A stretch of DNA of 64,000 nucleotides from Neelides folsomi (lineage: Eukaryota; Arthropoda; Collembola; Neelipleona; Neelidae): assembly GCA_034687125.1 (NCBI GenBank), contig JAQGBZ010000017.1, positions 248,001-312,000 of the forward strand. The letters are read 5' to 3'. The notes beneath the pieces were generated by a model. That model was not told where the DNA came from, did not search any database, and was given only the letters and a program-made list of their open reading frames with translations. Shown piece after piece: positions 10,377 through 61,100 of the stretch (position 1 is the first letter of the stretch; every line of letters begins with the position of its first letter). The position numbers were made by a program, and so were the translations under genes.

Positions 10377-13300
10377 CTACATGTTCTCAAACTGGTCAAC
10401 TCGTCGCTTAGTATTTCCTTTCCTGATTTCCCTCAACGTCTTGTATTTGTCTCGTCCCTGTCGAACATTCTCTTTGTGGATTTTGTCCAGCGTCGTTTCC
10501 TTCGTATCGTCTCGTGACTCGGCCAAATCATGTTTAAGCGCCTAAAAAATAAAGTTTATATATTACATGACGGTTAGTAGAATAATTTGTTCTCGAAATC
10601 GCCGAAATTGAATAATAGTATTAAAGCAAAACATTAAAACTTACTCTGAGTTGCTCTTGAAGCCGTGAGTTTTTCTCTGCTTGAGTCTTCATGCCCTCAA
10701 CTGGATCGTCATATTCCATATCTCCAGATGCGAGAGTGTGTGAGACACCGTTAACCATTTGCTCGTCGTCGTCATCAGCATCAGTAAGGTGATGATGAGC
10801 CGGGGTGGCATTTGCCAAGGCAGCTTCTTCTTGGCGTCTACGAGCATTCTCAACTTCTTCTTGAAGTTTACGTGTTTCCTCATCCTTTTCTTGGACCTCT
10901 TCTTGAATCCTCCTAACTTCCTCTTGTTTCTTCCTAAATACACATAAATAACGATTCAGCATTTAGTACAAACATTATAGTATTGATATTGTAAGATAAG
11001 TAATTGATAATGAATTTACATGATTTCGTCTTCTAATTTCTGTTTCTCGGCCTGTTCGAGTTCCTTGCTTGCCTCGAGTCTTTCCATCATTACCTGGAGC
11101 TCGTTTTGCCTTTGTTCGAGTTCGTCTTTGGCCTCCTGGAGTTTCCTTAGTTGTTCCTCGAGTCTCCTAATGGTGTCTTGAGCATCAAGGAGCTCCTTGT
11201 CCCGCCGTTCCATTTCTTCCTTCATGGTTCGGAGTCGCTCCTCGTATTCCTGCTGCTTTCTCTCTGCTTGTTCTCTAGCAGCAATTTCTCGCTGCAGTTT
11301 CTCTCGTTCCTGCTGCTTGGCCATTTTTTCCTCTCTTGCTTGGGCCTTCATTTGCTGGACTTCAATTGTGTCCGGCTTTCTTCGCCTCATGTACAATTCG
11401 TGGTTTCCCATGCATAGGGCCAGAATTCGTTTGTTGATCCTGAGCCGAGGAGCAAAGAACACAAAGTCCGGTGCTTTCTTGTCAATTGGCTTGATGACAA
11501 ATTTCCGGTCGTTGAACGAAATGTTTCGAATCTCAGACCATGGGAAGCCGATCTTTGGCGTGAGACGATCTTCACGTTCATAGATGTTAAGACCAAGGGC
11601 ATCAACGCCAAGCCAAAGTTCTGTCCCCTTCTTGTTCTTGATCTCAAAATAGTTCACTCCATACATTTCGAGGTCTTGAGCAATCTTCAGGTATTCCATC
11701 ATAGCGTCTTCGCGCATCATTCCCTTATGTTCCTGGAAAAATAATTATGTATTTATTCGTTTCTAAATAATAATAATGGAAATATGTAAAAAGCTAATTT
11801 ATTCATCTTTGAATCTTTTCTCAGGATAATTAATGTCTTTACCTTCCACCATGTGAGGATCCGCTCCTCCCATTCGTCACGAGACATGTTATGCTGGTCC
11901 ATGACCCGCTGAGGCAAAATTCTGTCATTCGCAAGATTTGTGTGAAGTTCTTTGTTGAAATCTCCATATTTGGCTTGAACTGCATAAGAGGCCAAGAGAA
12001 CCGAAGTTTCGGGAGGACAATAGATCTCATCAGATAAAATGGCATTTTTTACTTGAAGGTAAAAGAGCCTCTAAAATAAGAAAATTTTAATTAAGTAACC
12101 TTGTATCAAATTCTCATTAAATATTTCTAATAAAATAAGGTTCTTTCATCTACCGTCGTGATATCTTGAATTAACTCCTCTGCAACGTCTTCTGGATAAA
12201 ACTTGGCTCGGAACCGGAACTGAAGTGGAGACTCTTTTTTAATATCTTGACTTAGAACCTACAAAATCATTGTTATTAGTAATTAGGCAAATATGATTCA
12301 AGGTTAAAAGATCAGAATCTAATTATATCATATTAACCATACAATATTTTAGTACATATGACACAATAAAAATTTTTATCAAAAGTTTCTATATTAAAAA
12401 GGAACAAGAAGGAAAAACATAACAAAACAATAAAAATGTACTAAAATGTTTATTTCCTTCTCCCACGTGCTCATAAAAATGAATAGTAAAAACATGCATT
12501 CACTTAGCATTGAACATATTTACATAAACGCGAGTGAATAATTAAAGTACAAAGGGATGATGCAAGCAGTATAAATAAAGAATTAGGAGAGAGGAATCGG
12601 AAAGGCACTCTAGGAATTTAAAATCCTCACTAAGCTCATAGCTCTTTCATAATGAACTCGCCTATTCTGCTAATAAATGAGTTAAAATAAAAGGCTACTC
12701 TGCTTATCTCGTCAAAAATGAGCGATAAAAACAGAATTTTATCGACAACGGTTTAAGTTGAGCAATGTCACATTTAATCTCTCTTACAGCTCATAAATAA
12801 CAAAACGATAGAATGGACATTCTTAGCAAATAAATACAATAGGAATGAATTGATAAAAAATGATAAGCCAATGATTAAAAAATTATAAATCTCTTTTCAA
12901 ATACAAATTACAAAAGAATGGGACATTAATTACCAAATTTTGAGATATTCCCTATGAATAAAAGCAGAGATAAAAAATACTTTGTGTAGATTTAAACTCA
13001 AGTTGAAGAAAATTTAACCTTCTCATTCTCATTTCAAATTATTTTCTAGGACAGAGTAATTTAAACCAGGAGTTTAACTGCATATATATCTTTTAAATTA
13101 GCTCGAGTTAAGAATTGAAAATGCATATTAGATAAATCATATACCAAATAATGCTTCAAAGCAAAGTATAAATGTGAAGATATGAATGGTAAGTAAATAT
13201 AATGTGAATATAATGATGGTAATTGGTGAAATAAGTAAAGGAAGTGCGTATTCAAAATGTTGATTTTTTAAATAATAAATCAAAGTAAACATTTACCAAA

Positions 13301-20606: not shown

Positions 20607-23600
20607 ATGTCGGCAGAACCGGCACCTATTGAAGTATTAGATGAAAGCGCGGAAAAGAAAATGGAGTCAGCGGCCATTGTTAATTCCAAGGAAGTGAAGG
20701 AAGTGGAAGTCATTCTGGCTGAACCTAAACCTATTGAAATATTGTCTAATGCTGATGACAAGACAAAGGTTTCGATCAAAAAACCAGTTGAAGTTTGCTC
20801 TGACCATCGATATGTTTTTCCTTCTCCTTCATCATGGTTCAAAGTAAAGCTTATTTCATAATGATAAATGATAAAGAACTTAAAAAATTACTTTTGTTCA
20901 ATTTCTAATTTCTATTCAAAACTAATGATTAACTTTTATTCAATAGAACCCTATCTCAGCGGGAAGGGAAATTGATGGCATTTGGGCCTATTTGTCTCTC
21001 AACACAATCGTCATCGTTAAACCTAGGAGCAAGATTGCTGAGACAGAGGAACTTCAAAATGGTCATGCAAATGGAACAGCAGACGTTTCCTGGCCTGAAT
21101 TTTCGCTTGTAGGAATTCAGCGGGAGAAATTCCTCTCGATCAGTTTCTGCCAGGCGGCACACCAAGATTTGCCAATCAAAGATGTGACTCTAGTGTCGGG
21201 TTGTGAGGGAGGAATGGTCAGCATTTGGAATACAAACGAGAAAAAACTTGTCTCATCTCATAATATCCATAAGGTATTATTGTATTATAATATCAATAGA
21301 TTAACAATTATATATTCATTTCTTTCAACATGTTTATAATCTTATCTTTATCTTAAAAATATTTGAATGAAGGGACAACAAGTTGTTGGAGTAGAGTGGT
21401 CGACGAGGAATCCTAATTTGATTTATTCCATTGATGACAATGGTAAACTCTGCGTTTGGAACGTTCAAAAATCTACCGTCCAGACATTAAACCTCGGAAA
21501 GCATACTCCAAATTGCATTGCTGTAAGCCCATTTGAAGACCACATTGTGGCAATTGGAACAAAAGCTGGATATGTATGCATCGTGGAAGCCCTTGGTATA
21601 TATTCAAATTATCGTCTTTTGTATTTAGATTATGTATAAATTATAGATAAATAGAATTTAAATATCAATTCCAAGTTTTTCAATAATGACGTTTCTTATA
21701 GACGGAGGAAAGTTTCTCCAAAAGATGAGACATGACGAGGAAGTTGTTTCTTTGAAATGGGTTCCAAAAGGAAATTGGCGACTCTTTTCCGAAGAAACAT
21801 CCCAGCCACTTCTTGTTTCCGGTATTTCATCATCAAAGGGCCCATCGATTCGGGTGTGGGGACGAGATGGAAAAGATGTCAGTTTCCTTACCCCTTGGGA
21901 TAAAGATAAGGATAAACGATCCTACGGATCTTACAAAAGCTTCAGTATTGTGAGCTTCTTCAAGGACCCCGTCACCCAAAACCTTGCACTTTGTACTGGA
22001 GGCAAAAGTGGAGAGATTCTGTATTGGGAAGCTGGCATTGTACCTGAAAAACTTCATTTTCTTCATTCAAGTCCACTCATTTTTGACGCATTCCAATTTG
22101 GAGATATTCTCTGGTCATTTTCATTTGAGGCGATGATTGTGGGTTGGAATTTGAGATTCCAAAAGCTTGAATGTGTTATTCCAACCTTTAAAGGAGTTTC
22201 CTCAGCTATGGTTGCAAACGAGCACACAGACATTGCCATTGGTGGGATCGATTCTATTATTCGAATTCTCAAGTTCGTCCCTGACTACCCATTCATTTCA
22301 TCTTTGGAAGTTCCGACGCTCTCGAACAGAGTCAAAGGAAAGATTTCAGCTGTAAGTTAAATCTTTTTATACTAGTTTAATTAAATTATGATAAATCTTA
22401 TAAAATAAATCAAATGAATTCTATTTTGTATGATTTAATAATTCATTTTGTTTTATTCGCAGGTTGGTTGGCATTTGCAAAAAGAGAATCGGATTGCTTT
22501 TGGAACGGACGAGGGAGTCGTTGGATATTTGGATATTAAAGGCGGCTACAAAAATGTCTTCATGTTCAACAGGTTTAATTAATTTTTACAAATTATTTTC
22601 TAAATATTAAATATTTTCAGACGAGCGAATGGAACAGTTTATACAGTTTGTTGGGGGCCGTCGGTCGACATTTGGGGTAATTGATTCCCTTTTATTATTT
22701 ATTTTTACAATTTTTTTCTACTAAATGATTACAACTATTTAGATAAATGCAATAAGCAATGATTTATTTACTTATTCATTTTTATTGATCCATATTGTTT
22801 CTAATATAAAGAAATATTATTTAGGAGATAAAAAAGAGAGAAAGGCCGAAGACGGATCACCAATATCCTACCAAAAGGGTTCTGATCTTCTCATTTATGT
22901 TTGCGATGGAAAATCCGTAATAAAGCACCTATTACTTATTTGATAAAGTTTAATAATTAACAATGAAATAACAATAATTATTAATACCTATATTTTATGG
23001 TGTGCATATTTTTATTGCAGATTTACATGATTCACACTGGAGACCACAATAATGGTAACGATTGATTTTTATGGAAAATTTATGATTTCATTCAAATAAA
23101 ACATTGTAATAAAAAAGCATAACACAAATAACACTGTTAATAAAATTGAATATCGCTAAATAAAATTATGTTGTCTTTTAGTTCTAATTAACTTGGGGAA
23201 AGCTTTGTCCAAAATTGGATTTGAAGAAAAAAAGAAAATGACCCCTGACAAGCCCACTGAAATCCAATGGTCTCCTGATCAAACATATTTTGCAGTTGGC
23301 TATAATAACGGGTAAATTCCCACATTTAATAATATTTTTGGAAAACAAACTATTCACTTATTATATTATTCACTTACTATATTCACTTATTATTATAGAT
23401 TACACTGCCTTATTGAAACTGATGGACTTTTCCTAATATTCCATATACTTTTCTTTCAGGACTATTGAATTGTACAATGCTCCAAAGCTGCAGCTTCGAT
23501 GCTTCATCAATTGCCATAGCCGGGGCATTCAATACATGGCATGGAGACCTTACGATTTCAATCCTGATAATGAATCCGGAAAGAAGATTTTTGCCACTGC

Positions 23601-26025
23601 TTCCAATGATGGAACTACGAGGCTCTTTGATCTCAATAATCTATTTGACAAAGCACTTCTTGAATCTACTGATGTTCCGCCACTTAAGATCGTGTCTTGT
23701 TTGACCACATTGCAAGGACATGGAGGAGTTAGGGTAATTTCACTCGCTTGGAGTCCACATGATCCGAATCTCCTTGCCAGTGTTTCCTACGACAGGACTG
23801 CCATTGTTTGGAACATCTCGACAGGAGTTGGAATTTCCAGATATATGGAACATCAGCACAGGCTCATTTCAGTCCTATTTCATCCTGCAGATCCTCATCA
23901 CTTGATCACATTTTCTGATGAGAATTCTCTCGATTTTGCCATTCATATTTGGGACATGAGAAAGCATCCATTTAGAGTTGGAAACCCGAAACCGATCGTT
24001 CTTCCCACCGTCAATAAGCTAGAAAAGCTCAATGAGAAGCTCATTGAGATCAAAACTTCAAAAGATCATAAGGGTCAAAAGCCATTGAGTAATATTGAAC
24101 AAAATGGAAATAGTCATATGCTTTCACTCCTTACAAAGTCAACAGGTGAATGAATATGTTACTTTATAATTTAACGTTAAAGTATGTAGGAAGTTAAAAG
24201 GCAAATTCTATTAAGATTAATGATATGTATGATATAAATATCCTACATATTTTTATTTTAGAATCAAAGAAAACCAAGAAGATTCCAAGCTTGCTTCCTA
24301 TGACTGCGAATGCACTTGTGAATGGAAAACATTCCTCATTGGCTGATGAAATCAAATATTTGGTTGAAAAGACTCCGTTGCCCACTGACATTGACGCCAT
24401 TACAAAGAACAATATCGAGGCGGAGAATTCTCAACTCGAATTGGTCAAGTTAATCGAATCACTCGAAATGACCCCAGAATCTCAAATTGAAGACATTCAA
24501 TCAAAGATGGACGGGACTAGACATTTTGATGAGGCTCTTCATTTGGAAGTGTTTGGCAATTCTGAAGCATGCACAAAAATTGTCAAGGCTGAAATGGACT
24601 TTCATCTAAAATTGAAAAAGACTGAGCCGGCATTTTATCTTTCGCTTTGGCTCAAAGAACCTGCGGATGTGATCGAGCAAGCCATCAAAGATGATGTAGT
24701 TACTGAAATGATGATCAATGTTGCGTATCGTCACTCAAAGTCGTAAGTATCATGATTTATTAATCTAGATAATTAATAATTTAGGACTGATAATTAAGAT
24801 ATGTAGAATTGATAAATAATTATTTTAAAGTTTTAAGATGAGTTATTTTAAACAGATTGTGGAAGAAGGCCGTACATTCATATGTAAATCAATTGAAGGC
24901 GAGCAAAGAGTTTTACAAAGCTGCCAACTACTTGGCTGAGATTGGAGAGCCAGAAGAAGCTGTGAATTTGCTCGCAGATGAGAAATTTTATCGTGAAGCC
25001 ATTGTATTGGCTAAACTTCTCTTTACCGATGATCTCCCCATTATTGGAGAATTGCAGATGAAATGGACAAATTATTCTCTTCTCACTGGGAATTTTGAAT
25101 TGGCTGGGAAAATGTAAGAAATTAAAATCTAAAATTAAACATGATTTTTTAAATTGTACTTTTTAGTTTGGCTTCACTTGGGAAATATGATGAAGCTGTT
25201 ACCGCCATCCAAAAAAGGAATCTCCCTTACATTTGGAAAACAGCAATTTATCTTTCAACGAAAACTTCAAACTCCGAAGATGTTCATAAGTTTGGGTTCA
25301 AGTATGCTGAATATCTTATGAAAGGCAAATATCATTCTGCTGTCTTTCAACTTACTGAGCAGTATCCTTCTTTGAAGGTTTTCTTTAATACAAATATTTA
25401 AATATTATTACACTTTGAAGATGATTTAAATAAGGCACAGGGATAACGAATTAACTTTATTATTTCAGTGGCTCATACCAATTTCTGTCATCCACCAGAA
25501 ACTTTTCAATTTTGAAAATGAGTTCTCAGGAGATTCAGTTCAAGGAGTCGAATGGGAGAAGACGATTGAAGATTTCAAGGTCGACAGTTTTGCTAAGCTC
25601 TTGGCCTTAAATGTCACCCAAGAGGATTTGCTCGCTCTGCAAGAGAATATTGTTCAATTCATCCAAATGGCAATTCCCCAAACGATTGATGAAGCTCGTG
25701 TTCTCAATGCCAAGCTCGTGACCCTCAATCTATTGAAAGAAGACCAGGCGAACTTGAAGGAGCTGATTGACAATTCCAAAAATTGGTTCCTAAAATCAAA
25801 ACCAGGTTTCATTTTTGGAATCGGACGACTTGCTAAAAAATTTGGTATGATTCATTAAGATTAAATCAAACTTATTGATTTATTTTTTAATGTTAAAGTT
25901 TTAATGTGATGTATTTTAATATTTGTCATCTATTTAATTTTATTTTAGGATACGAGGAGATGACGGTCGAAACTGAAGAGGTGAAATCAAATGGAGTTGA
26001 CCCGACCACTGTAACTCCAGCTTAA
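20607..26025 (+). CDS. GEMIN5: Gemin5, WD-repeat snRNA-binding protein of the SMN complex
   Basis: Gemin5 recognises the m7G cap and Sm site of snRNAs and delivers them to the SMN complex; it also binds mRNAs (family knowledge). Fifteen exons close to 1315 aa: 20607-20843, 20947-21273, 21373-21595, 21702-22351, 22463-22572, 22621-22676, 22825-22916, 23021-23054, 23182-23311, 23460-24145, 24262-24742, 24856-25113, 25167-25377, 25469-25844 and 25949-26025. Two tandem WD40 propellers fill roughly residues 70-790 (VSGCEGGMVSIWN; GYNNGTIELYN; LLASVSYDRTAIVWN). A linker with KIPSLLPMT, the Gemin5 SLLP motif, follows, then a helical TPR-like region (YKAANYLAEIGEPEEAVNLL; FYREAIVLAK). The protein is shorter than the human one (1508 aa), mainly at the C-terminus. 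The first 65 residues are an acidic, lineage-specific extension with two similar EPxPIE(V/I)L segments. One exon is only 34 nt. Confidence 0.92.
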
Positions 26026-42345: not shown

Positions 42346-43285
42346 TCAATCATCATCGGAATCTTCTCCAGGCACATAATCCTCATCGTCATCATCGTCG
42401 TCGTCCAAGTCGAGCCCGTCGAGGTCTTCAAACAGACTTTCGTCAATTGGCATGTCATCGCCTTCCTCAACGAATTTAAGATCCGACTCGTTAAGCGTTG
42501 TGTCTTTCATGAAAAGCTCTCGTCCGTTAAGTTTCTTGCTGGCGATTTCTTTTTCTATATCTATTTTCTTCTTTAATGACATTTCGTGGTCGAAAACAGC
42601 CTTCCAGGCAGCAAAGGACTCAGGAGTTACTCGTGTTCCATCAAACCGATGTCTTTCTGCTTCTTCCTCTTCGAAGAGTTTCCTTTCGGCTTCTTCGTCT
42701 CGCTCCCTTTCAAGAGTTTCCCATCGTGTATTGAGCCATTCGGTTGCAGCAGTTACAAGAGTGTAGACCATGACCATCCCTAAGTTTTCTGAGGCCTGAA
42801 TGTCAAAAGTAAAATAGTTATTTAATAAAAATACCTAATAAATACACTTATTTATCTAAGTCATACAACGCTTACAAGGTCTTTAATAAGTTTTATGAGA
42901 GCTACAACATCCTCAGGTTCCATATTAGTTTCCGGATCTTCATCCTCTTCATTGAATATTGATACAAGTGGGATTTCTTCCGGGTAAGTTGGTGTCAATT
43001 CAAATTTTAGATTAGCAAATAAACCCTCTTCTCCTTCTTCGTTATATTTATCAGATTTAACTGAGATTGTGAAAACAAATGGACTCGAGTTCAAAACTAT
43101 AAAAAAATAATATTCTTTTGCATGATATACAGAAAATCGTCATTCTTATATCATTGATATTTACATTAATCTTTATACATTACATCTACATAAATCAACT
43201 TTTTAAATGATTTACGTTTATATTCATTGTAGTATATTGATTCAAGAGCCTCTGCTTCATTGGTCTGTTCTTCCAAGTAGTCCAT
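42346..43285 (-). CDS. RWDD1: RWD domain-containing protein 1 (DFRP2/Gir2 family)
   Basis: RWDD1 partners the DRG2 GTPase on translating ribosomes and, as yeast Gir2, binds Gcn1 (family knowledge). Three exons (43216-43285, 42876-43096, 42346-42795) close to 246 aa; human RWDD1 is 243 aa. The RWD domain fills about residues 1-110, with the start EEQTNEAEALESIY and the core YPEEIPLVSIF. SENLGMVMVYTLVTAATEWLN follows, which matches the family ENLGMVMIFTLVTA motif. Then comes a charged DFRP region (RKLFEEEEAERHRFDGTRVT; KLNGRELFMKD) and an acidic DDDDDDDEDYVPGEDSDDD tail. It is head-to-head with DCP2, about 725 bp apart. Confidence 0.95.
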
Positions 43286-46933: not shown

Positions 46934-48671
46934 CTAATCAAGCTCAAAATCGTAATCATAGTCGTTTGTATAAGTTCTTGAACTCCTTGAGATGCGAACC
47001 ATCTTTTCACTTTCTTCAATTCTTTTAACCACCCGGCCTCTTTTTGGAATGTCACTAACATCAATAATCGACGACGAAGGATTTCGCGAAATGCGGATAA
47101 CTGGCTCATCGTCTTCGGCACGGCCCTTTAGAACAAAATCTGCTGCGTTGTAAGGCGTGTAGATTTCGAAAGAATCGATAGGCTTTCGATACGCTGGTTT
47201 GTCAGGAAGTTTTAAGATGGAACCAACGAGCAAAATTTTCTTGGCTTCTTTTTGAGGATCCAAATTCTCTTGTTTCCGAGAAAGTATTTGTCTTAGTCTC
47301 GAAATTTTTGTGAGTTCTTCCGACTTCTCGACCTTCAATTCTTTTGGCTCATCCATCTTTTCCGGTTTTTCCGGCTCTTCAAACTTTTTCAGTTCTTTCG
47401 GCTCTTCCACCTTTATCTGAACTTTGATCTCTTCCAATTTGTGTGGTGATTTTGAAACGACTTTAATATCCTCACTAATTGTAAGCCGTTCCATATGCCT
47501 TTGAACCGAAATGTCGGTGTTTTCGCAATTTACAGATACATCCGCAACAATATTTTTCTGAGGAACAATTGGTGTGGACCCAACAGCACTAACGATTGTT
47601 GGTTTTCTCTAAAATAGTTCAAAAAATCAAATTACATAATTAAATTGAACAGTCACAGATATAACTGTTATAATATAAATACATATATGCATATGGAATG
47701 GAGTAAAAAAAAGTATCTTACGTATTGCATAGTGACTCTTGCTAAATACTCTTCATGAGATTGATGAAAATAACTCGATGTCAGTGGTTTCGGTGGATTC
47801 TGTAACAATGGTGGGTTGTTGGGAAGTTGTCTTGCAGCAGGCAAGAACATTGGTGGAACAGGTTGAGATGAATAGGCATCGCTAATTGGAAGATAGTTAG
47901 TTCGAAATGGAAGCATCATTGGTGTAATTAGTCCAGGAAAATTTAATGGCATAAGCGGTCGAGGTTGAGAGTTTACGTTCCCCATCAGGTGCGATTCCTG
48001 TCGATAGAATGTCGGTGGAGAAACGTAGTTGTCAACGTAGGGTCTGGGAATCAATACGTCGGGCTAAAATATATTTTATTTTAGTTGAAATTAAATTAAC
48101 TTTTTTGGCATTCTTCTGCATTTAAATAATTTAATTATCAACTCACGGAAACTTTTGTTGTGTTCGAGAGCAGAGGACGGGCTCCATACTTGTCAGACAC
48201 TCTTTGTTGAAGAACTGTTCTCCGAAGGCTTTTACAATCTTGTGGGATTTGGAATTCATCACTCAACTAAATTATTTGATCAATTACTAATAAGTTTCGA
48301 TAGAATACGACATCGTTAAATTTTATATGCCTTATTTTCAATGAGTAATTACAAAAAAATAATAGCGTCCATTATAGAATTGGCGAATTTGGAAGATATC
48401 CCTCATTGCATACAAGAATTCCTTGATTGTTTCATACCCAAAATCTTTGTATGGGATAGGATCATCTTGATCGCTGAAGAAATCTAAAAATTGAAAAGTG
48501 TTCAGATAATTAAAGCGAAGCATCATCATTTGGACTTTTACTAATTAATTTAATTATTTATTGGCTACACATACCATTCAAGAATTGGAGTGTGCACCCT
48601 TCTTTGTTGGATACGAGGAACATGGCAATCTCTTCCTTCCATTGCTCAAACGACTTCTTCTTTGGAGGCAT
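46934..48671 (-). CDS. LOTUS (OST-HTH) domain protein
   Basis: Five exons on the minus strand (48575-48671, 48353-48483, 48147-48266, 47722-48063, 46934-47608) close to 454 aa. Residues about 7-76 resemble a LOTUS/OST-HTH winged helix: SFEQWKEEIAMFLVSNKEGCTL, then IPYKDFGYETIKEFLYAMRDIF, where the family has a (I/L)PxxxLGFxxLxxFLxSMPD pattern. LOTUS domains occur in Oskar, TDRD5, TDRD7 and MARF1, bind RNA G-quadruplexes or Vasa, and act in germ granules and piRNA biology (family knowledge). No Tudor domain follows. The middle is Pro/Met/Tyr-rich and disordered (about 130-230). The rest is Lys/Glu-rich with repeated EEPKELK-like units, ending in a YTNDYDYDFELD tail. I cannot assign an orthologue. 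It is tail-to-tail with DCP2. Confidence 0.75.
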
Positions 48672-49727
48672 TGTTAGTGATTAACTCCCAACTCCTTGTC
48701 AGAATGATAATGTCGTTAAACCCCGAATTGGTTTAAAGATATCTAACTGTGAATGACCTCAATGAGTGGCGGTCTCGGGATGGAACTGAAATCTCAACTC
48801 AATTGACATTTTAATAAAATACGACACAATGAGGACAAGCAGAAGCAGATTATGCTCGCAAGCGGATAAATTGAGAAAGGTAATGGCGCGGATGCCTGGA
48901 ATTATGAATTTGTCTCTGAAATTTGTTGGCCTTGTTGGTATGATTCCTTTTATGAATGGTTATGAATTATGACTCTTTCCTAATTTAATGGATTTATGAT
49001 GAAGTGATCCTTATCGTAGATGTTTTAGATTTTATGAAATTATTGCAATGGTGTGCTATGAAGCTGTTGAGATAAGATATGCTCATTGTCAGTTTGCCTG
49101 CTTGTGGGGAAAAAATTCTTGGGAATGAATGGGGCAGTAAACATTGAAGCAAAATGATTCCTTTTATGAATGACACTGGAAGAAATTAGTTATATCATAA
49201 AGAAACCCCCTTTTAAACGTGAATATCTTAATAAATAATAAATACCAATTAATGTAATTAATGTTATTTATTACGTTCAGAACTGACAGCATCATTAACC
49301 TATTAAGCCCTGAACTCGAGACATACTCGAGTCTATGGAAACCTCCTTTACTTCCTGAACTCGAGAATGTCTCGAGTCAAACAAAATCACCTTTAAAACC
49401 TAAACTCGAGTATGTCTCGAGTTTGAAAAAACTTCCGTTGCTTCCTGAACCAAAGAATGCCTCGAGTTTGACATGACAAACATGGCCCGAGAGAAAAATG
49501 ACGAATCATTTTTGCAGATGAAAAAAAATTAACGAATATTTAAAATAGTAACAAAATTAATGAAAATAAATTATAAATATTTAGTGTGCAAATGAAGGTT
49601 ATATACAATTTGATTGGGAGTAAACTGGAGTCGCTAGAACCAGCATCGCTTATTTTATATAAATTAATAAATTGGTAATAATAATTTAACGAGTTATGTT
49701 ATGATTAAGATAGGTTGGTTCTTGATA
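48672..49727. other. Upstream region of the LOTUS gene with a 45-bp tandem repeat
   Basis: Between two minus-strand genes. The side next to 48671 should hold the LOTUS gene promoter. A four-unit tandem repeat occupies about 49309-49488, and the rest is A/T-rich and should include the 3'-UTR of the MDM2-like gene. The open frames here are unsupported. Confidence 0.5.
49309..49488 (+). repeat. 45-bp tandem repeat, four units, with paired CTCGAG sites
   Basis: Units start at 49309, 49354, 49399 and 49444 with CCTGAACTCGAG (third unit CCTAAACTCGAG; fourth CCTGAACCAAAG, degenerate). In units 1-3 two CTCGAG hexamers are separated by five bases (for example CTCGAG AATGT CTCGAG), forming a near-palindrome. 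Unit 4 keeps only the second site. The period is exactly 45 bp, a multiple of three, so the plus strand stays open as a 15-residue repeat resembling PELExxSSxxKxPLL. Unit-to-unit divergence is moderate. Confidence 0.9.
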
Positions 49728-51691
49728 TTATGAGACAATAATTTTGACAACCCGAAGAATTCGTTCTCTGCAAATAGGACATTGACCAGTTTTTTTCAAA
49801 ATTCTAAAAAAACAGTTAATTAAAAATTGTAGCACAAATGAATATAAAGGATACATTTATAAAGACTTACTTATCAGCACAAAAATAGCAACAAACTTGG
49901 TGGGCAATCTTGTTGTGAACGAATGCAGCATTCTGTAAATGAAACACGTTTAATTTAATCTAAAATTATTATTTTTTAGTTAGGAAGAAAAATAATTTTA
50001 AATATTTTATACTTTTTCGCGAATGAAACAATATTGGCATATTGAATTTGGAATTTTTTCTTTATCTTCCGGGCCAATATTTTGTTCGGGTGAGTTCATC
50101 GTTGGTGATTTTTCAATTTGACTTTCAATTTTAGTTGATTGGGACAAATCTTCCAAAGCATCAGTGTCTTGAGAACTCAAAGATTTTGGCAAACTCCCCA
50201 TTTGAAGAACAATGGGATTTTCTGTGTTTGGCCCCGACTTTGTTCTTGTTTTCGTTTTACGTGATTTTGGTCGACTTGGAAGCCAATTTCTCCTTATCTT
50301 TAAGTTAAAGTATTTTTAATTTTTATATGGTTTTAAAAATATTGACCAAATTCAATTTACATTATAAATAAAACATTTGAATTGAATTTAGATTACAATG
50401 AATTGGATTTGTATTCATTCATATAAATATACCCGAAAGCAACGATTGCATAAACTCAAATGGGGACTCGTCTTCGACTTGCATTGAGTGCATTGCCATT
50501 TGTCACGATCTGAAAGTTCAGAATCATCGCTCATGGCTGGTTCTCCTTTGTTCCCGTCTGACTCTGAATCTGCATCTCCAAAGTTTTTTTCAACTTCTTC
50601 CCCTTCTTCAATGACACTCGGAAGTTCAAGTCTAGACTAAAATAATTATAAAAATCATTTAATCATTTTCCATTTGAGGATCATTTTGCTTACTTCAAGA
50701 TACGCATCAACTCCAGAACTTGAATTGCAGTCTTCAATTGGATTGTCATTGATTTCATCATTTGAAGCCACTTCCAATTCATTCCTGTAAAGATCGTCCG
50801 AATCATAATCAACTGAAGTGTCAGAAGGAAAAATCCGAACAGGATTGATTAAGATTTCGCTCTCAGTATCATTTGTGAGTACAACATGTGATGGTAGACC
50901 CTTTGTCATTTCTTCATTGTCAGTGAGATCTGAATCGCTTGTTAAAGCACAAGCTGATATACTGCTATTTGAACCTTCAGAAACAATTTTTAATTATAAA
51001 CGTTTTCAATTAATCAAACATTATTTAGTGATATCCTCAGAATATAGATGGCCATACTGAAAGAAAAGGAAATTCGCAATCTTTCCCGCCCAATCTTTTT
51101 AGGAGGTGGTTGTCCCTCCTCTTCTGATGTACTAGAACTGCTGCATTGGCAGTTGGAATTATGTTCATGTAGATTTTTATCAGACCTCCGATGAAGACTT
51201 TTTATAATCCCTTGAAAAATATAAGAACATTACATTAAAAAAAACTCCAACGATACCTTTAAAAGTTTTAACTCATAAAGCTTATTATAGCTGCGAGATT
51301 CGTATGATCCTAGGTCGTAACTCCTAAGATGAATGAGAGTGGTGATGAAGAGATGGATGATTGGATTTGAATTATATTTGAGGTTTATTAGAGGAGAATT
51401 GACATTCGTTCTGTTTTACAATAGGAATCGAAGTGAATAATAATAAACATAAATGAGTGAAAATACAAATAAACAGTATAATGAATTATCATAACAACGC
51501 TAATACACTTATAATCTAAGATTCTAAATTAGAATTAGAATATTACTTGGCCCTTCTTCACTCAAATGAGGATATTCATAATGTAACTGATCCAGTGGAT
51601 TTTCTTCCCCATTCTCATTGCATCTTATAATAACGCTCTCATCAGGTCTTTGGGGTATATCAATTTTCTTTTCTTCTAAATTGGAATCCAT
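49728..51691 (-). CDS. MDM2: MDM2-like E3 ubiquitin ligase lacking the SWIB domain
   Basis: Seven exons (51547-51691, 51058-51210, 50694-50974, 50433-50636, 50013-50297, 49871-49932, 49728-49803) close to 401 aa. The RanBP2-type zinc finger of MDM2/MDM4 is at about 240-261 (WQCTQCKSKTSPHLSLCNRC), followed by NWLPSR as in vertebrate MDM2. The C-terminal C2H2C4 RING has ligands Cys348, Cys351, His362, His367, Cys371, Cys374, Cys385 and Cys388. Spacing is identical to human MDM2, and so is the 13-residue tail after the last Cys. A Ser/Asp/Glu-rich acidic region (about 100-235) precedes the finger, and a KKIGRER basic patch lies near residue 85. The p53-binding SWIB domain that normally begins MDM2 is absent. 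The start Met has an in-frame TGA in the probable upstream leader exon (about 51835-51950). In other animals MDM2 ubiquitinates p53 via the RING; here that target contact would have to be different. Confidence 0.85.
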
Positions 51692-54600
51692 CAGTCTACT
51701 ATAGTTTCAATAACAGAAAAAATTTTATCAAGTGATTTTAATAAATTAATAACCAAACATTTAATGATTATACGCTTATTATTTAAAAGTTACTAAAACG
51801 CTGTATGAAATGTAAGTTGTATATTTGGATACCTCTTGGTCTTAGAAAGGTCGAAGGTTGATATCGCGTGCTGACCGTGCAGAGTTCAGTGATTCGATGA
51901 ATCGTAATCTAAATTGACTCGTAATGTACGTTTTGAGCCCATGCCGAATAGAAAAATAAATGAATGAGCGGAAAGCAGGACAAGATGTGAAGAAATAAAT
52001 ATTCAAGAATGAACATGAACTAAGGGCGCCTCTTATTCTGTTTCATATTTTGAAAGAGCAAATTCGCAAATGTTAAATGGTGTTAGCTGGCTAGGGGAAA
52101 TATGAGATTTTCATCTTCCCCTTCACTAAACAAGGATTGGTCAAATTATTCGTCACTCATAGTATTCATATTCATTCACCATTCTTCATAAATTGTTTTC
52201 AAGAGATCATTCCAATCTTTTTCCTCTTCTAAATAAATGTAAGGATTAACTTAATTTAAAGTCACAATTAGGGAGAATTTACCTTTGATTCCTTAATTAG
52301 ATCCGTTTCAATTCTAATAATTAATTATTAAGATAAAAATGCTGAAAACACCGGTAAATTCGCTCTTACTCATCTTTAGCTTTTTAGCTGAAATCTGAAA
52401 TTATTTAATGTGCAGTGACAGACAGTTAATATTTAAACCTTCTTACAGTACAGTGGTTTGACTTCTACTTTTATTGATTTTACTCTTTTAATTTTCAAAT
52501 CAGTAAGTAATCTCAACTCAGGAATATAAACATTACAAAAGGTGAGTTATAAAAATAATTTTATAAATATACACATAATATTTATATGCTGGATGTAAAT
52601 GATTCAAAATATTTTAAATATTAAATATGATGCATAACATTACAATTAGAGCAGGTATTATATAATGATTAAAAAGTTTAAAGGCCATAAGAATAGAACT
52701 TGTTCTCTGTGTTACATCTGTTCATAGGCTTCAAGGTCATAATTTCAGGATTTCATGAATTATTTCTCACTCACTCTCATTGCGAGGAACGTGCGAAAAT
52801 GTCTAAAAGTTTCATAATTGGAAGTTAATTTAGTACACTTGCTATTTGACAAGTTGGTTATCCTCTTGAGCCTAGAGCACTTTAGGTATATTTTATTAAT
52901 TTTATCATCGTTTATTTGATTTTACATTTGGACAACAATTATATCAGGATATATTCATTATTATCAATTTTATTTATCTTGTATGACTTTATATTGGATT
53001 GGATGCTTATGATGTTCTATTACAAGATTATTTTATGTAATTTCATTTCGAGTTATATAAATATTGCCCGATAATATAACGTGATGATGACCAATCATTG
53101 ATTTTGCTGATCTGCAAACACCAATGAAACCATTGATTATATGGGTTATTTTATTCATGCCTATCTAACTAACAATAATTCCAATTCCAATATTAACAAT
53201 ATAGCCTAGATAGTTGACTACAATATCATAAAGGACACTTGGGGTGTAACATAAATGTACAACATTTGGTCACTTTTCTTTTGTAAAATTGCAAAAATTC
53301 ATTCTATCATTCATATTACTTACCATTATTTTGCTTGATATCAAATTGACGCATTCGCATCCATTGAATTCATTGAATGAATGAGAACAATGAAAAAAAC
53401 TATCTTACATATCTAATCCATTTGATTATAAAAGATTTCACTTTATGAAAAAAATTCTCCGAAATTGGATTCATCGCTTCCTCAATAAAATATAAGCATA
53501 TTTTGATAAATAATGGGATTATCGGATTTACTGAATGATTTCCACGAACTCCTCTCCCGCTTTATACATCATTGGGGAATTTGGGATTTCTATTTTCCTT
53601 TTTTGTAGAGGGATGATAGGTATTTTGTACCATCTTATTCATTTTCAAAATGATGAAAGTTTAGGCTAGCGTGCTTTACATCAATGCAATGTTTCTTACT
53701 ATGCTATGTATTAAACCTTAATTAATTTTCCAATATTTAACCACATTCGATTAGTTGATTAAATATAATACAATAGAAAATGTTCATTTAACATTGGAAT
53801 TGACGTATAGATAAAACATATATTTATTATTAACATTTTTTCTTGAGATGAGCTTTGACATCACTTTCCTTATTATAGTGTTTTTTATTAAAAGTTTCTG
53901 GAATTTCATCGGCACTCGAAAGATTAGAATTTCCAATACTGTAAGTTCCAGTTATAACAAGTTTCCCACGAACATATCCCTTTATTCAGTTGTTTTTCAT
54001 AATTAATTAAGGGTAGCGTGTAATTCAACACTATGAGTTAAAATGAGTCGGGCAAATAATGCAACGTGTGGGTTCGATTGTAGGAATCGAGTAACTTTTT
54101 TCCTTCCTTGTTAATTCCTTGAAGAAATTTAAGAAAATTTAAATCCTTTACCAGTCATTCATTCTTGTACTGGCATTGAAAGTGTTTTTATAGTAATATA
54201 TATGCCTGCTTGTGCATAGAGTTTCTCTAGTGTGCATCTTAAGGAGTACATTGTACTTGTGGTTTAAGGTAATTAATATATTTATTAATATGGGTAACAT
54301 TCAAATAATAATGTTAACCTAACAAATAAAAAGATTAAAGAGTGATGAGGCTTTTATAATGGAACTTTTTTTAATTTCCAATAATGAAACCCATTCATGT
54401 TTAAAATAAATCAATAATTACTTCTAGATTAGATTACGCCTATGAAATGTGCTATTTATCATTAATATTATTTATTGAAAAATTCTCTATTCATAGGTTT
54501 TTACCTATTTGTTTGGCATAATTATTGAATTTGACCAATTTTTAAGGAAGAGATTGTTTTTTAATCATCTTTAATCGCCTCTTTATTCAGTGGATTTAGT

Positions 54601-55055
54601 ATTTAAATTTTTATAGCATTAAAAATTTATATTTTATATCATTAAATACTCCTTTAACTGTCACCTAAAAGTACCATAATTGGTGATTATTAGGAAACTG
54701 AAAGAGTATTGATATTCCATAATAGGTAATCGCAATGGCTATTTTAGCTTAATTTACTCTTCGTGCATCATTAATTATTTAGAAAATCAATATGGTGAAG
54801 CAATTCAATTATCTATTTAAATAGTAGATACGTTATGGTTTCTAATATCATCTATAGTCTACCTACTTATAATGACCATCTGGATTTTTTTCTATTCTAT
54901 CAATAAAAAGAAAGTTTGCTTACAATATACCTACAGTATGTACAAACTGTTTTTATTACTTATTTTCAGGATCTGAGGTTGTTTAAATTAATAACGTGGT
55001 TTGTGCATCGTGGTTCAGCTAATTTAGTCATTTGCTCTTCAAGAATCATAACATA
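51692..55055. other. Intergenic region between MDM2-like gene and DEGS1
   Basis: About 3.4 kb between divergent genes. On the minus strand a probable MDM2 leader exon ends at about 51833 (ACCAAGAG before GTATCC), with the acceptor CTATAG at about 51698. On the plus strand the DEGS1 coding exon belongs to a leader exon starting after TTTTCAG at 54969. I looked for a missing SWIB exon on the minus strand near the leader and saw no open stretch resembling it. The remainder is A/T-rich with no coding signal. Confidence 0.5.
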
Positions 55056-56446
55056 ATGGGACAAAAAGTTTCGAGGACAGATTTTGAATGGACTTACACA
55101 GAGGAACCCCATGCCTCGCGTCGAAAAGAAATATTAAGTAAGTTATTTCCATATTTCAAATAATGAAAAAATTGGAATTAAACCTTTATAATGTCTTAAT
55201 TTTTTTGTTTAACTCAATTGAAATCTGAATTGAAATTAATTGATAACTCTTTTTGCGCAGAGAAATATCCGGAGATCAAAAACCTTTTTCGTCCTGATCC
55301 TAAATTCAAATGGACGGTCTCCTGCATGGTTCTAGTCCAAATAGGAATGTTATTTATTGTTCATGACATTCGATGGAGTTACCTTTTTTTACTTGCCTAT
55401 TGCTTCGGCGGAGTCATCAACCATTCACTTATGCTTGGTATTTAAATTATTCATTGATAATTATGATAATACTGTAACATAAATTATTAAATTATTTTCA
55501 AACAATGAATATTTTTATTGAAAACTTACAGCCATTCATGAAATTGCTCATAATCTCGCATTTGGACATTCAAGACCAATGGCTAACCGAGCACTTGGAA
55601 TGTTTGCCAATTTGCCAATTGCAATTCCATTTTCAATCTCTTTTAAAAAGTATCACCTGGAACATCATAGGGTAAGTGTTTTAATATAAATCTTATAATT
55701 TTCTTGGTTTTTGTAACAAATCTATTAACATTGATTGGTATGTAATTGCATTTGCAGTACCAAGGAGATGAAAAGTTCGACACGGATATTCCAACAGGAA
55801 TAGAAGCAAAACTCTTTTCGACAACATTTGGGAAGCTTATTTGGGTTTTTCTCCAACCATTGTTTTACGCTCTCCGTCCTGTCATTACGTATCCTAAAAA
55901 CCCAAATAAATTAGAAATCATCAATGTGGTGATTCAAATGAGTTTCAACTACTTTGTTTACCAATATTTTGGAGTGAAAGCTATCGTTTATTTGTTCGGT
56001 GGGAGTCTTTTGTCAATGGGTTGTCACCCTGTCGCCGGTCATTTCATTTCGGAACATTACATGTTCAAAAAAGGATTTGAAACTTACTCCTATTATGGCT
56101 TCCTTAACTGTATTACTTTTAATGTTGGATACCACAATGAACATCATGATTTCCCAGCCGTTCCGGGATATAATTTACCAAAGGTGGGTTACTCTTACTC
56201 ATTTAACTGGTTATAAAATTATTAATTGTGTGCATAAAATTAGTAATTATGATTCAATTTTTAAAGGTTCGTGAAATTGCAAGAGAATATTATGACAATC
56301 TTCCACATCACGACTCGTGGGTACGAGTAATCTACGACTTTGTCACTGATCCTGACATTGGACCATATGCGAGGATTAAAAGGAAACACAGAGATTCTTC
56401 GGCTATTTTAAATAGTGACGAGAATGGAAAAAGTAAAAGTCTTTGA
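55056..56446 (+). CDS. DEGS1: Sphingolipid delta-4 desaturase DES1
   Basis: Endoplasmic-reticulum enzyme that converts dihydroceramide to ceramide by introducing the 4,5-trans double bond. Five exons (55056-55137, 55261-55437, 55532-55671, 55758-56183, 56267-56446) close to 334 aa; human DEGS1 is 323 aa. All three di-iron histidine boxes are in place: HEIAH at 89-93, HLEHH at 128-132 and HNEHH at 259-263. The N-terminus [12 protein letters not shown] fits the family, and Gly2 with Ser at position 6 is compatible with N-myristoylation, which is known for mammalian DES1. Hydrophobic segments flank the histidine boxes as expected for a membrane desaturase. [18 protein letters not shown] is the typical C-terminal block. 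The leader contains a 5'-UTR intron. Confidence 0.97.
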
Positions 56447-58115
56447 GTTACCTGAATACGACAATAAAATATGCCTGGTACTTTAGCTATTTTGATTCCA
56501 AAACACAAAAGAAATTATTTTACAATGAAATGTATGTATATAACGACTACTATCTATATTAAGTTTTGAAATTAACTTTACCTGAAAAACGTACCGTGTG
56601 AATGAACTGCAAAATTTAAAAAAAACTAGGTTTAAAACATTGAAATGTTAAAAAAGTGAACATAATCTATGGATTATGGATTTTAGGTAACTAATGATAA
56701 TTAAAGAACTTTATCATTACTTGTTCCAATTAAATGTGCATACCCATTATATTAAAATAATAATGAGTCTCCAGTAAATTAATAAATGAACATTTTTTGG
56801 CTGGACTTTACTTTCCGGAAAAACGTCACAAAACTCCATGGAGCCCCTATCCTCTAATACAAAACTTAACCTAACCTAAACCACGCGAACAATGTATCAA
56901 CATACGGGCTCCATGGAGTAGCATAGAGTTTTTCCGGCAAGTAAAGTCTGGCCCATTTTTTGTTATTTTATGTGTAGGTTAGGTTAGATTTATAATATTA
57001 ATTATTACTTAATTAACGCTACACATTGTTGCAAGTTTAAGATGTAAACTTCTTTTTAAATCTTATGAATTTTTATAAAATCTTTAATGCGCTTTCCTAT
57101 TACCTATATCAATCGATAAACTTAAATTGTTCATATATTACAAATTACAATGATAAACTTCAAAGATCTATTTTATTCCAACTCTTCGTGTTTGGGAGAT
57201 TAATTTGTAAAATGAATCTACATTAACTAGTCGATGAGTAATAAGCTGAATCATTAAAAAATCAATACATTTTATATAATATATTAATTAATTTAAAAAA
57301 CACATCGTTTTAAAAGTTTTATTTTTAATGTTTTACTAACTAAAAACATACTTTTTATGATTTATGTAACACATATTTACGTTTACTTTGTATATTGAAT
57401 CTGTTGATCAATAAATTGTCGTATTCTAACAATTGCGTATTATTGCGATAATTTCATCAAGATGTAAAATATTATTTATCTTTAAAATATTTAATTTTAT
57501 GTGTTTTGACTCTTGTTAGAATAAAATAGTGAATATTGTAAAAGGTAAAAATTCTTAAGGAGTCAAATTGTGTTAGTAGCACCATCATATGAATTTATGC
57601 CATTAGCCCAATAGACATAATATTTATGCACAAGGTTACTGTATGGGATTGTCATGTCATTGTTCAAAATCATTATGAAGGTCGCTTTTGTTCAAGCAAT
57701 TTTTATGTTCTTATTACGTAAGATATTTACGCGTAGACGCGTATAAAGATCCCATACTCATTTTCATTTCTTAATATGCAGGTATTTGTATTTGAAGTGC
57801 TCAAAGATATGTGCTCAATAAGCTAATATTTGTCAAATTGCAAAATATTGAAAACATTGGTTGTACAACACAGTACAAGCTATAATAAATAAATACCTAT
57901 CCTGTGTTTGTATGTGAGCTATGGGATATAAATTTAATGAATTTGCATACATGAGAGAATGAATTAAAGTCAGATATTAAAGTTGAGAATTTGGAACATT
58001 TTACTCGCTCAGTCAGATTATGTTATTAACTGGTTAATGGCACTGGTAAATATTCATTAGTAGAAATAAAAGCAAATTTTGAGAGTGTGGATCCGCTGGA
58101 GTGTCTTTCTGATCT
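56447..58115. other. Convergent intergenic region DEGS1 / transgelin
   Basis: A/T-rich, non-coding. It contains one clear hAT-like miniature element (56799-56953). The remaining sequence should hold the DEGS1 and transgelin 3'-UTRs; nothing else seen. Confidence 0.5.
56799..56953. mobile_element. hAT-like MITE, 155 bp, with 8-bp target duplication
   Basis: Left end GGCTGGACTTTACTTTCCGG; the reverse complement of the right end reads GGCCAGACTTTACTTGCCGG, and similarity continues inward to a shared CTCCATGGAGCCC block, about 48 bp of inverted repeat. The element is flanked on both sides by the same eight bases, CATTTTTT (56791-56798 and 56954-56961). An 8-bp duplication is typical of hAT transposons. 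It has no open reading frame, so it is non-autonomous. The centre carries CTTAACCTAACCTAAACC. Confidence 0.85.
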
Positions 58116-61100
58116 TTACATGTGTCGTGTGTTGCCCATATTGAGGCCGGACTGGTTCGCTCCCTTGTTTGTTCCCATCTGAAGTCCAATGACGGTGTCG
58201 CCGGCCTTAAGGACCTCCTCAGAGAAATTCCTCTCGTTCTTGGTCGACTCACGTGGGCCGATGACCGATTTGCCGAACTTGGACCCCTTGCGGCCCAATG
58301 ACTGGAGACAGATCACGACGGAGTTAAGGTTCTGCTTCTCCCAGAGATCCACCGTCTGGAACTGTTCTTGTTTGGGGACTCCGAGGTCAGTCGCAGCAGA
58401 GAGGAAATAGTTGATATTCTCCATGCATTTGAACGCCATGGTCGTGTTATTGACCTTCTTGATCGTGTTCGGCTTGAGCTCGTTTATCAACCTGAACAAC
58501 ATTCATAAAATGTTATATTTTTCTTAATTATTTTCTTAAAGTTTATATCACTTGATAAGATTTTACTAACAATGACCAAAATATCATTAAATTGAAATAA
58601 TGAATATTTTTGAGATTTATTACCTGCAAAGGACAGTTCCGTCCTTGAGGACTTCAAAGAAATTCTCCATGTCTCCGGATGTGTTGATGTTGTCTCCGGT
58701 GACTCTCTTGATCCATTCCAAGACCTCTTGGGCATGTTCGTCATTGTATTTACTTATGATCTGTAGAAAAAAATATGCATAAATTGAGTGGATTAGAAGC
58801 TAATTACTAATTAATCTTATTGTCAGGTTAATTTCCACATATGCCCATTGGTTCTTTATTTGAAGCGTAGGTGATAAAGCTTAGCGAACTGTGAAATTCT
58901 AAGAGCTCATGAAAGTGAAAGTGTCAATGATTCACAGAGAAGTGAGCTGCCATTTCGGCTAATAAGGGAAAAGCCTGAGTCGTGAGGATCGACCTTAAAT
59001 GGGAAAGAGCTGATCCTCCACTGCCATGCATCGACTCACCTGAGGTCATCATCCAGAAAAGATCCTGCCCAATCTACCCAACACCCTCGTGTCTTTCCTT
59101 TCGCACATTCAATCATTTTAATCGCATGATTTTGACCATTTATTATGGACCATTCCTGTTGCTGATTTTTCTTGTCTCAAGAATTTTTTCACAACACCCA
59201 TTCGCAATCGTTGAGCATATTAATTTTCACTCTTTAAAATTTTCACTTTTCACATTGAAAGGTGAACGCTTAAAATAGGATTTTGAATCAATTGTGAAGA
59301 ATAGGCAATTGAAAGATTAACGAGCTTTCCTTATCTATAAATACCAATATATTCACAGGTAAACTAAACTCTATACTTTGTTAGCTCTTTTCATATGTAT
59401 AAGTAAATACAGTTTACATGTACAGGTACATATGAAAAGAATGATTTTACATCTTTCAGGCAATGTTCAATTTGCTAAATTAAATATAATAATTTAATAG
59501 AAAAAAGAACAAATATGACCAAGTGCATTTTTATACCTACTTTGACCCAAAGATTAGATAATAATTGGGAACAATGCAGAAACCGATAAACTGGGAGTTA
59601 AACTTTCACCGTGTCTGTATTTAAAATTGCTTCATGTTTCATAATCATTAGCCAATTTAATCTCATATTTTAAATTGAATTTTCAATTCAAGAATATTAT
59701 TTAAAACATAAATGAAAAATTTAACTGAAAGTAATTAAATTCAACAATAAGCAAATAACGTTCCTTTGTATTCATACGAAGGTAAAAAGAGAGCCGAACA
59801 AAAAATATGCCATCCGACCTTTCAACCTTGAATATATTTTTTCATATGAGAAAAGTCATTACAATTGTTTGTTTATTCTTGGATTACATCATTGCTTAAT
59901 CACCATTATTTGATTCATCATTGAGATATTGGGATCTATGAAATGTCATAATAACATTTAGAGGATGGTTCCACTAAATCGAGAGGATGACAGATAATTT
60001 AATTAAATCGTGACAAGCCTTCCTCACATTTTCATTAAATTCCCGTGCACAATGTAATGAAAAAAGGACGCGTGGATTTAAATACTTGGTATCTCTGTAT
60101 TTGTTGATTGGTGCAATAACAAGTTGATAGCTAAAATTACAAAACTTTGGCCTTTGAATCAAGTTTTACTTTGTAAAACCGTAACGGCAAATTAAACATC
60201 CTTCCTTTAATAAATTGTCTTGAATCAAGATCGTAAAAACTTGATTACAAATTCAATTGAATAGAAACTCGCTCCTAAATAAATAAAAAAGAGTCTTTGA
60301 TGCCATGAAGTTGAGTTCTCCCATTCGCCAGAGATTCTGTCCTGATGTCACACTTTATTTCTCAAAGGCTCACAGAATTAAAAGACATTTCAAACTTTTC
60401 ACACAATTCCATTCCTCATACATTTTAGTATACAAGATAGGGAAGATACGTTTACAGTACCTACACATTAAATAGAAGTGGAACTAAACATGATGGAAAA
60501 ATAGGCTTGTTGAATACAATACTCAATTCTTCTCTTTTAGATATTATGTTAGCAAGTTGTATTTTAAAGAAGATAAGTTCTCTCTCATGAATTGCATTTT
60601 CCATTGTGTTCTCCGTATAAAGAAATGCATTCACTAAGGAGTAAAAATGCAAGTACAGCCGAGGTACTTAAAATTTCTAGTTAAACTCTCCTTAACCTCC
60701 CTTCCAATCCTCTTCAATGACAAAAGCACTAAACACTCTTTTCTAATCATTCCCATTAGCCCCAAACACAAACACACTTTCATTTGAATATTAAACCCTA
60801 TTATAATTTCAAGTGTTTAATAATATTATCGGTTTCTCTTTCAATATTATATTTACCTGTGAACTTTTTGGTAGGTGTAATGCCTGTACTAATGTACTCG
60901 TATGTAATTTATAATTTTATGCTCAGGGATTTATGAACATTAGAAAAGCTCGATAAATACATATTTACATATTCTATGCACAACTTAATTGATTTTACTA
61001 ATGAAGGATGTTAGTTAATAAGCACACACGTACTTGTATCAATTAATAAGTGTGTTATGATAAATTCCTAAAAGTATGCGATGGCAAAATTATGTCATCG

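Follow-up and report, generated by a model that had tools for sequence, protein, structure and literature searches.

Gene organization of the locus

The window, that is, the whole stretch of 64,000 nucleotides from Neelides folsomi that was analysed, carries on its minus strand (51691-49728) a predicted MDM gene of seven exons, which join in frame into a protein of 401 residues followed by a stop codon. All seven exons are open and all six introns are of the GT-AG type; the exon structure, the start and the expression of the gene are predictions from the genomic sequence. The features of the locus and of the rest of the window, with the evidence used for each in brackets, are as follows.

49728..49803, minus strand: MDM exon 7, the final two RING cysteines, a 13-residue tail and the stop codon (gene model, PDB match, alignment)
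49871..49932, minus strand: MDM exon 6, the RING ligands His/His/Cys/Cys (gene model, PDB match, alignment)
50013..50297, minus strand: MDM exon 5, the end of the zinc-finger motif (RNWLP), a linker and RING cysteines 1-2 (gene model, PDB match, alignment)
50433..50636, minus strand: MDM exon 4, an acidic stretch and the MDM2-type zinc finger, WQCTQC...CNRC (gene model, match to 2c6a at E 5.1e-8, alignment)
50694..50974, minus strand: MDM exon 3, a linker with many acidic residues (gene model)
51058..51210, minus strand: MDM exon 2, Ser/Glu-rich and then a basic RERLR stretch (gene model)
51547..51691, minus strand: MDM exon 1, the start codon and 48 hydrophilic residues, without SWIB (gene model, translation, SWIB test)
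51692..55055, minus strand: interval between the MDM start and the divergent desaturase, with no SWIB in its three minus frames (Pfam, raw SWIB scoring)
51833..52080, minus strand: putative non-coding leader exon, with its last base at 51833 and a guessed 5′ limit (donor sequence, in-frame stop, local G+C)
55056..56446, plus strand: divergent neighbour, a fatty acid / sphingolipid desaturase (PF00487; the 3′ limit is the end of the listed ORF)
11019-11744 (minus), 58119-58502 (minus), 23437-24150 (plus), 42864-43139 (minus) and 48341-48544 (minus): other gene pieces, namely FERM/ERM, calponin-type, WD40, RWD and an OST-HTH/LOTUS fragment (WD40 and RWD over the Pfam cut-offs, the OST-HTH/LOTUS fragment under it)

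The desaturase was matched by PF00487 at 55746-56213 (E 1.2e-13), and its Lipid_DES match reached 19.6 bits, under the cut-off of 23. Two repeats were observed in the neighbourhood. Just 3′ of the MDM gene (49303-49467) stand three degenerate copies of a CTCGAG-rich repeat at a spacing of 45 bases, which contain near-palindromes. Downstream of the desaturase (56799-56953), two arms of 52 bases each, 79% complementary and separated by 51 bases, form an inverted repeat, which could be, as a guess, a small MITE-type element.

To look for an acidic central domain between the N-terminus and the zinc finger, a composition count was made, which gave 12 Asp/Glu among the 38 residues at positions 191-228. 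Residues 1-125 showed no significant match to human MDM2 114-256. The RERLR-ISFSFS stretch was tried as a counterpart of the human MDM2 ISLSFDES region and rejected: its score of 37 was lower than the shuffle mean (38.5), and 547 of the 1,000 shuffles scored at least as high.

Zinc finger and RING of the MDM protein

Membership of the MDM family was judged by a zinc finger ahead of a C-terminal C2H2C4 RING, and both were found. The zinc finger (residues 240-259, W-x-C-x2-C-x10-C-x2-C, followed by RNWLP) has the ligand spacing of human MDM2, and the RING (residues 348-401, C-x2-C-x10-H-x4-H-x3-C-x2-C-x10-C-x2-C-x13-end) has a pattern identical to that of human MDM2 438-491. In alignments to the human MDM2 reference, a sequence identical to PDB 8bgu, the zinc finger scored 109 (shuffle mean 25) and the RING 118 (shuffle mean 26.3), values reached by none of 1,000 shuffles in either case. 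When the 401-residue protein was searched against PDB, MDM2 (8bgu, E 6.4e-13) was the top match among 33 sequences at E up to 1; all 20 matches at E 1e-5 or better were MDM2 or MDM4, and the next was MEX3C at E 0.013. Pfam at E up to 1 matched only the RING (PF13920, 33.1 bits against a cut-off of 27) and no other zinc-finger family. Alignment, PDB search and shuffles thus agree with the first-pass annotation, which had proposed an MDM2-type zinc finger and an eight-ligand RING at human spacing with a 13-residue tail. A genome search with this RING at E up to 10 returned a single locus, in three exon pieces.

The tail positions aligned to human Y489/F490 are Ile/Val in this protein. Loss of the human-type aromatic residues from the MDM2 tail could weaken ligase activity, and vertebrate MDM4 on its own is a weak ligase, so that ligase activity of an apparently single-copy MDM is not to be assumed. 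Any prediction of activity from the RING is accordingly tempered by the Ile/Val replacement, and also because MDM4 matches reach further into the tail than MDM2 matches do. The missing aromatic residues would also suit a decaying pseudogene, but seven open exons of seven, six GT-AG introns of six and the intactness of every zinc-finger and RING ligand make decay of the locus extremely unlikely.

Absence of SWIB at the locus

A canonical p53-binding MDM2 carries an N-terminal SWIB, and none was found at this locus. Residues 1-110 scored 20 against human SWIB, compared with a shuffle mean of 22.8 that left the score reached by 820 of 1,000 shuffles, and Pfam at E up to 1 found no SWIB in the 401-residue protein. 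Only 24 of the first 100 residues are hydrophobic, with a GRAVY of -1.27, whereas human SWIB has 46% and -0.2; a SWIB fold hidden in the N-terminus is therefore unlikely, given this hydrophilic composition together with the shuffle-level score.

The search was extended to the DNA. In the gene with its introns and in the upstream interval of 3,364 bases, both read in the three minus frames, Pfam at E up to 10 gave no SWIB, the reach of this search being limited by the HMMER filters, which discard most matches above about 0.1. An unsplit human SWIB, used as the positive control in that search, scored 34.7 bits, and a SWIB divided over short exons could evade these searches. The best raw SWIB score upstream was 28, below the shuffle mean and reached by 57 of 60 shuffles. 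The earlier claims that no SWIB precedes the zinc finger and RING, and that no SWIB-like exon lies upstream, were hence borne out at the locus by Pfam, the shuffle test and the upstream and intron searches, the second of them across the 3,364 bases to the desaturase at 55056.

These searches bear on the alternative that this MDM gene does encode a SWIB, in a 5′ exon that has diverged strongly and escaped annotation or in an isoform from another promoter. A plausible acceptor, a pyrimidine-rich stretch followed by ...actatag, precedes the MDM start codon; exon 1 is thus probably joined by splicing to an exon further upstream, and the TGA directly before the ATG may be intronic. A diverged SWIB is conceivable as well, since Aberg et al. 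(2017; PMC5543598) describe the p53-binding domains of chelicerates and myriapods as less conserved in length. Against this alternative, Pfam at E up to 10 matched nothing in the interval's three minus frames within the filter limit given above, and the top upstream score fell below the shuffle mean; moreover, whichever of the two acceptors preceding the ATG is used, the putative leader carries an in-frame stop and no Met beyond that stop, and a SWIB exon beyond the desaturase would require the desaturase to be nested inside an MDM intron. We therefore regard a SWIB-coding 5′ exon as improbable. The first-pass annotation had taken the in-frame stop in the leader as backing for the start codon; the stop and the lack of a later Met were seen, and the argument is plausible only, as the leader itself is predicted.

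SWIB domains elsewhere in the genome

The SWIB half could alternatively lie in a separate gene, as in a split MDM2. A genome-wide search with PF02201, in which the 75-Mb assembly served as the search space for the profiles, found two confident SWIB loci, L001 (C275:14268-17444) and L002 (C148:93486-96671), whose SWIB domains scored 91 and 88.6 bits after two exons had been joined by eye. The two genes resemble each other, and both have a DEK_C exon upstream of SWIB (DEK_C E 2.7e-10 and 1.6e-6), an architecture that we take to be that of UAF30-type proteins. Because DEK_C is in the same gene, these loci represent another kind of SWIB gene, unlike the missing half of MDM2. Two weaker PF02201 matches in short frames (E 0.45 and 1.9) look like noise, and nothing was found in the genome with the human MDM2 SWIB as query at E up to 10.

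The weight of this empty search is reduced by a positive control. BAF60/SMARCD is a SWIB protein that would be expected in any animal, and it was not recovered genome-wide with human queries of 115 and 382 residues, to which only the two DEK_C/SWIB loci answered. The non-recovery may reflect an assembly gap, masking or a real loss. The absence of SWIB from the genome is therefore weaker than its absence from the locus, since the control failed and parts of the assembly may be missing or masked. The failed control leaves some room for a split MDM2, but both confident loci carry the upstream DEK_C exon and the remaining two matches resemble noise, so that a separate SWIB gene is very unlikely; the earlier suggestion that the gene is split, with its SWIB at another locus, was not supported by this test, weaker as it is for the BAF60 result.

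The p53 partner

The only matches to the p53 DNA-binding domain in the genome search lie together on contig C366 (30.5 and 29.3 bits); the first DNA-binding exon scored alone passed the Pfam cut-off of 27 bits narrowly, at 27.4. The 180 predicted residues before that exon, encoded by three exons, contain no Trp, and the FxxxWxxL motif is therefore missing from the predicted N-terminus, in a gene model that is itself a prediction and may have additional 5′ exons. Over the 5,653 bases that precede the predicted p53 start, the FxxxWxxL pattern occurred twice, while 300 shuffles averaged 0.74 occurrences; a 488-residue frame resembling a helicase by eye holds one of the two, and a low-complexity frame the other. 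The check proposed in the first-pass annotation, a search of p53 for FxxxWxxL, was run and yielded none in the predicted N-terminal exons. The second feature of a canonical p53-binding MDM2, a p53 whose TAD carries FxxxWxxL, was accordingly not found in the predicted model. Near p53, in the region L013 (C366:45000-54500), a 229-residue minus-strand frame at about C366:47800-48490 resembles a piggyBac-type transposase, by eye only.

Mitochondrial genome

One contig of the assembly (C742) is the circular mitochondrial genome, with ends that overlap by 77 bases and close it into a circle of 15,080 bp. Its gene order is I-Q-M-ND2-W-C-Y-COX1-L2-COX2-K-D-(ATP8)-ATP6-COX3-G-ND3-A-R-S1-E-F, followed by ND5-H-ND4-ND4L-T-P-ND6-CytB-S2-ND1-L1-16S-V-(12S), where COX1 was named by Pfam, the other proteins by eye, and ATP8 and 12S by position only. 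ARAGORN placed trnL(UUR) between COX1 and COX2, which we take to be the pancrustacean arrangement, and did not find trnN. The presumed control region has 16.7% G+C. In PMC6537178 the notostracan mitochondrial order is treated as the model of the ancestral order of Pancrustacea. A separate lipocalin search, aimed at SAHS proteins of the tardigrade type, gave a single match (E 0.11), under the cut-off.

Interpretation

Judged from the sequence, the locus is very probably a pancrustacean, apparently single-copy MDM gene, encoding a putative ubiquitin ligase with an MDM2/MDM4-type RING and without the N-terminal p53-binding SWIB. Of the first-pass interpretation, the MDM gene lacking SWIB at this locus stands, its view of the architecture as unusual is not supported, and its split gene is very unlikely. 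The missing SWIB most probably represents the loss reported earlier for Hexapoda and Crustacea, and it fits the published distribution of this domain.

In such a protein, the RING would be expected to dimerise, which is probably the route to E2 recruitment and ubiquitin ligase activity, and substrates might be chosen through the acidic/zinc-finger region or through the disordered N-terminus. If p53 is controlled at all, this would occur outside the contact between SWIB and FxxxWxxL, because the predicted p53 N-terminus is also without the motif. Turnover of p53 need not depend on MDM, since HUWE1 and TRAF6 are reported to ubiquitinate p53 in a crustacean (PMC8941888).

We tentatively suggest, with some doubt, that the zinc-finger/RING half of this intact and apparently single gene, whose predicted p53 partner also lacks the MDM motif, might have a p53-independent job of its own that has outlived the canonical p53 contact. 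If this were true, these animals would be a natural test of the p53-independent functions of MDM2. The question raised is what purpose the retained MDM RING serves once the SWIB grip on p53 is gone.

Comparison with known systems

Among the papers listed by the literature searches, none names this MDM locus in its title or in the first part of its abstract. The protein is closest in description to the truncated MDM of Crustacea and Hexapoda. In PMC5543598, Hexapoda and Crustacea are reported to have only truncated p53 and MDM, without the interaction domains; a small number of species in these groups have MDM with its acidic, zinc and RING parts, and none has the p53-binding domain. A 2023 paper (PMC10303687) repeats the absence for insects, crustaceans and cnidarians. 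As in that truncated MDM, the zinc finger and RING are kept here and the p53-binding domain is absent, and the p53 TAD is absent in the group, a comparison made by published description. As both absences are already reported, the MDM studied here adds one more example to a type that is already known, and the earlier view of the SWIB-less architecture as unusual is not supported, the same absence being published for Hexapoda/Crustacea and for cnidarians. Our results fit the published view that the p53-binding domain of MDM and the TAD motif of p53 were lost together, in one genome in which both genes were examined. Cnidarian MDM, in which the p53-binding domain is likewise reported missing (PMC5543598), belongs to a distant lineage, and its loss would be independent.

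Compared with human MDM2, the protein shares the zinc finger, the C2H2C4 RING spacing, the 13-residue tail and the position of the RING at the extreme C-terminus, whereas it differs in having no SWIB, in its length (401 vs 491 residues), in Ile/Val at Y489/F490 and in an N-terminus that is not significantly alignable. Its likeness to MDM4 is seen in the RING, where the matches to 2vje, 5mnj and 7mla extend to residue 400 and those to MDM2 end at 396-397; however, the MDM4 matches are weaker than the MDM2 matches both for the RING (best E 2.1e-7 vs 2.4e-9) and for the zinc finger (9.5e-6 vs 5.1e-8), and this MDM, unlike MDM4, has no SWIB.
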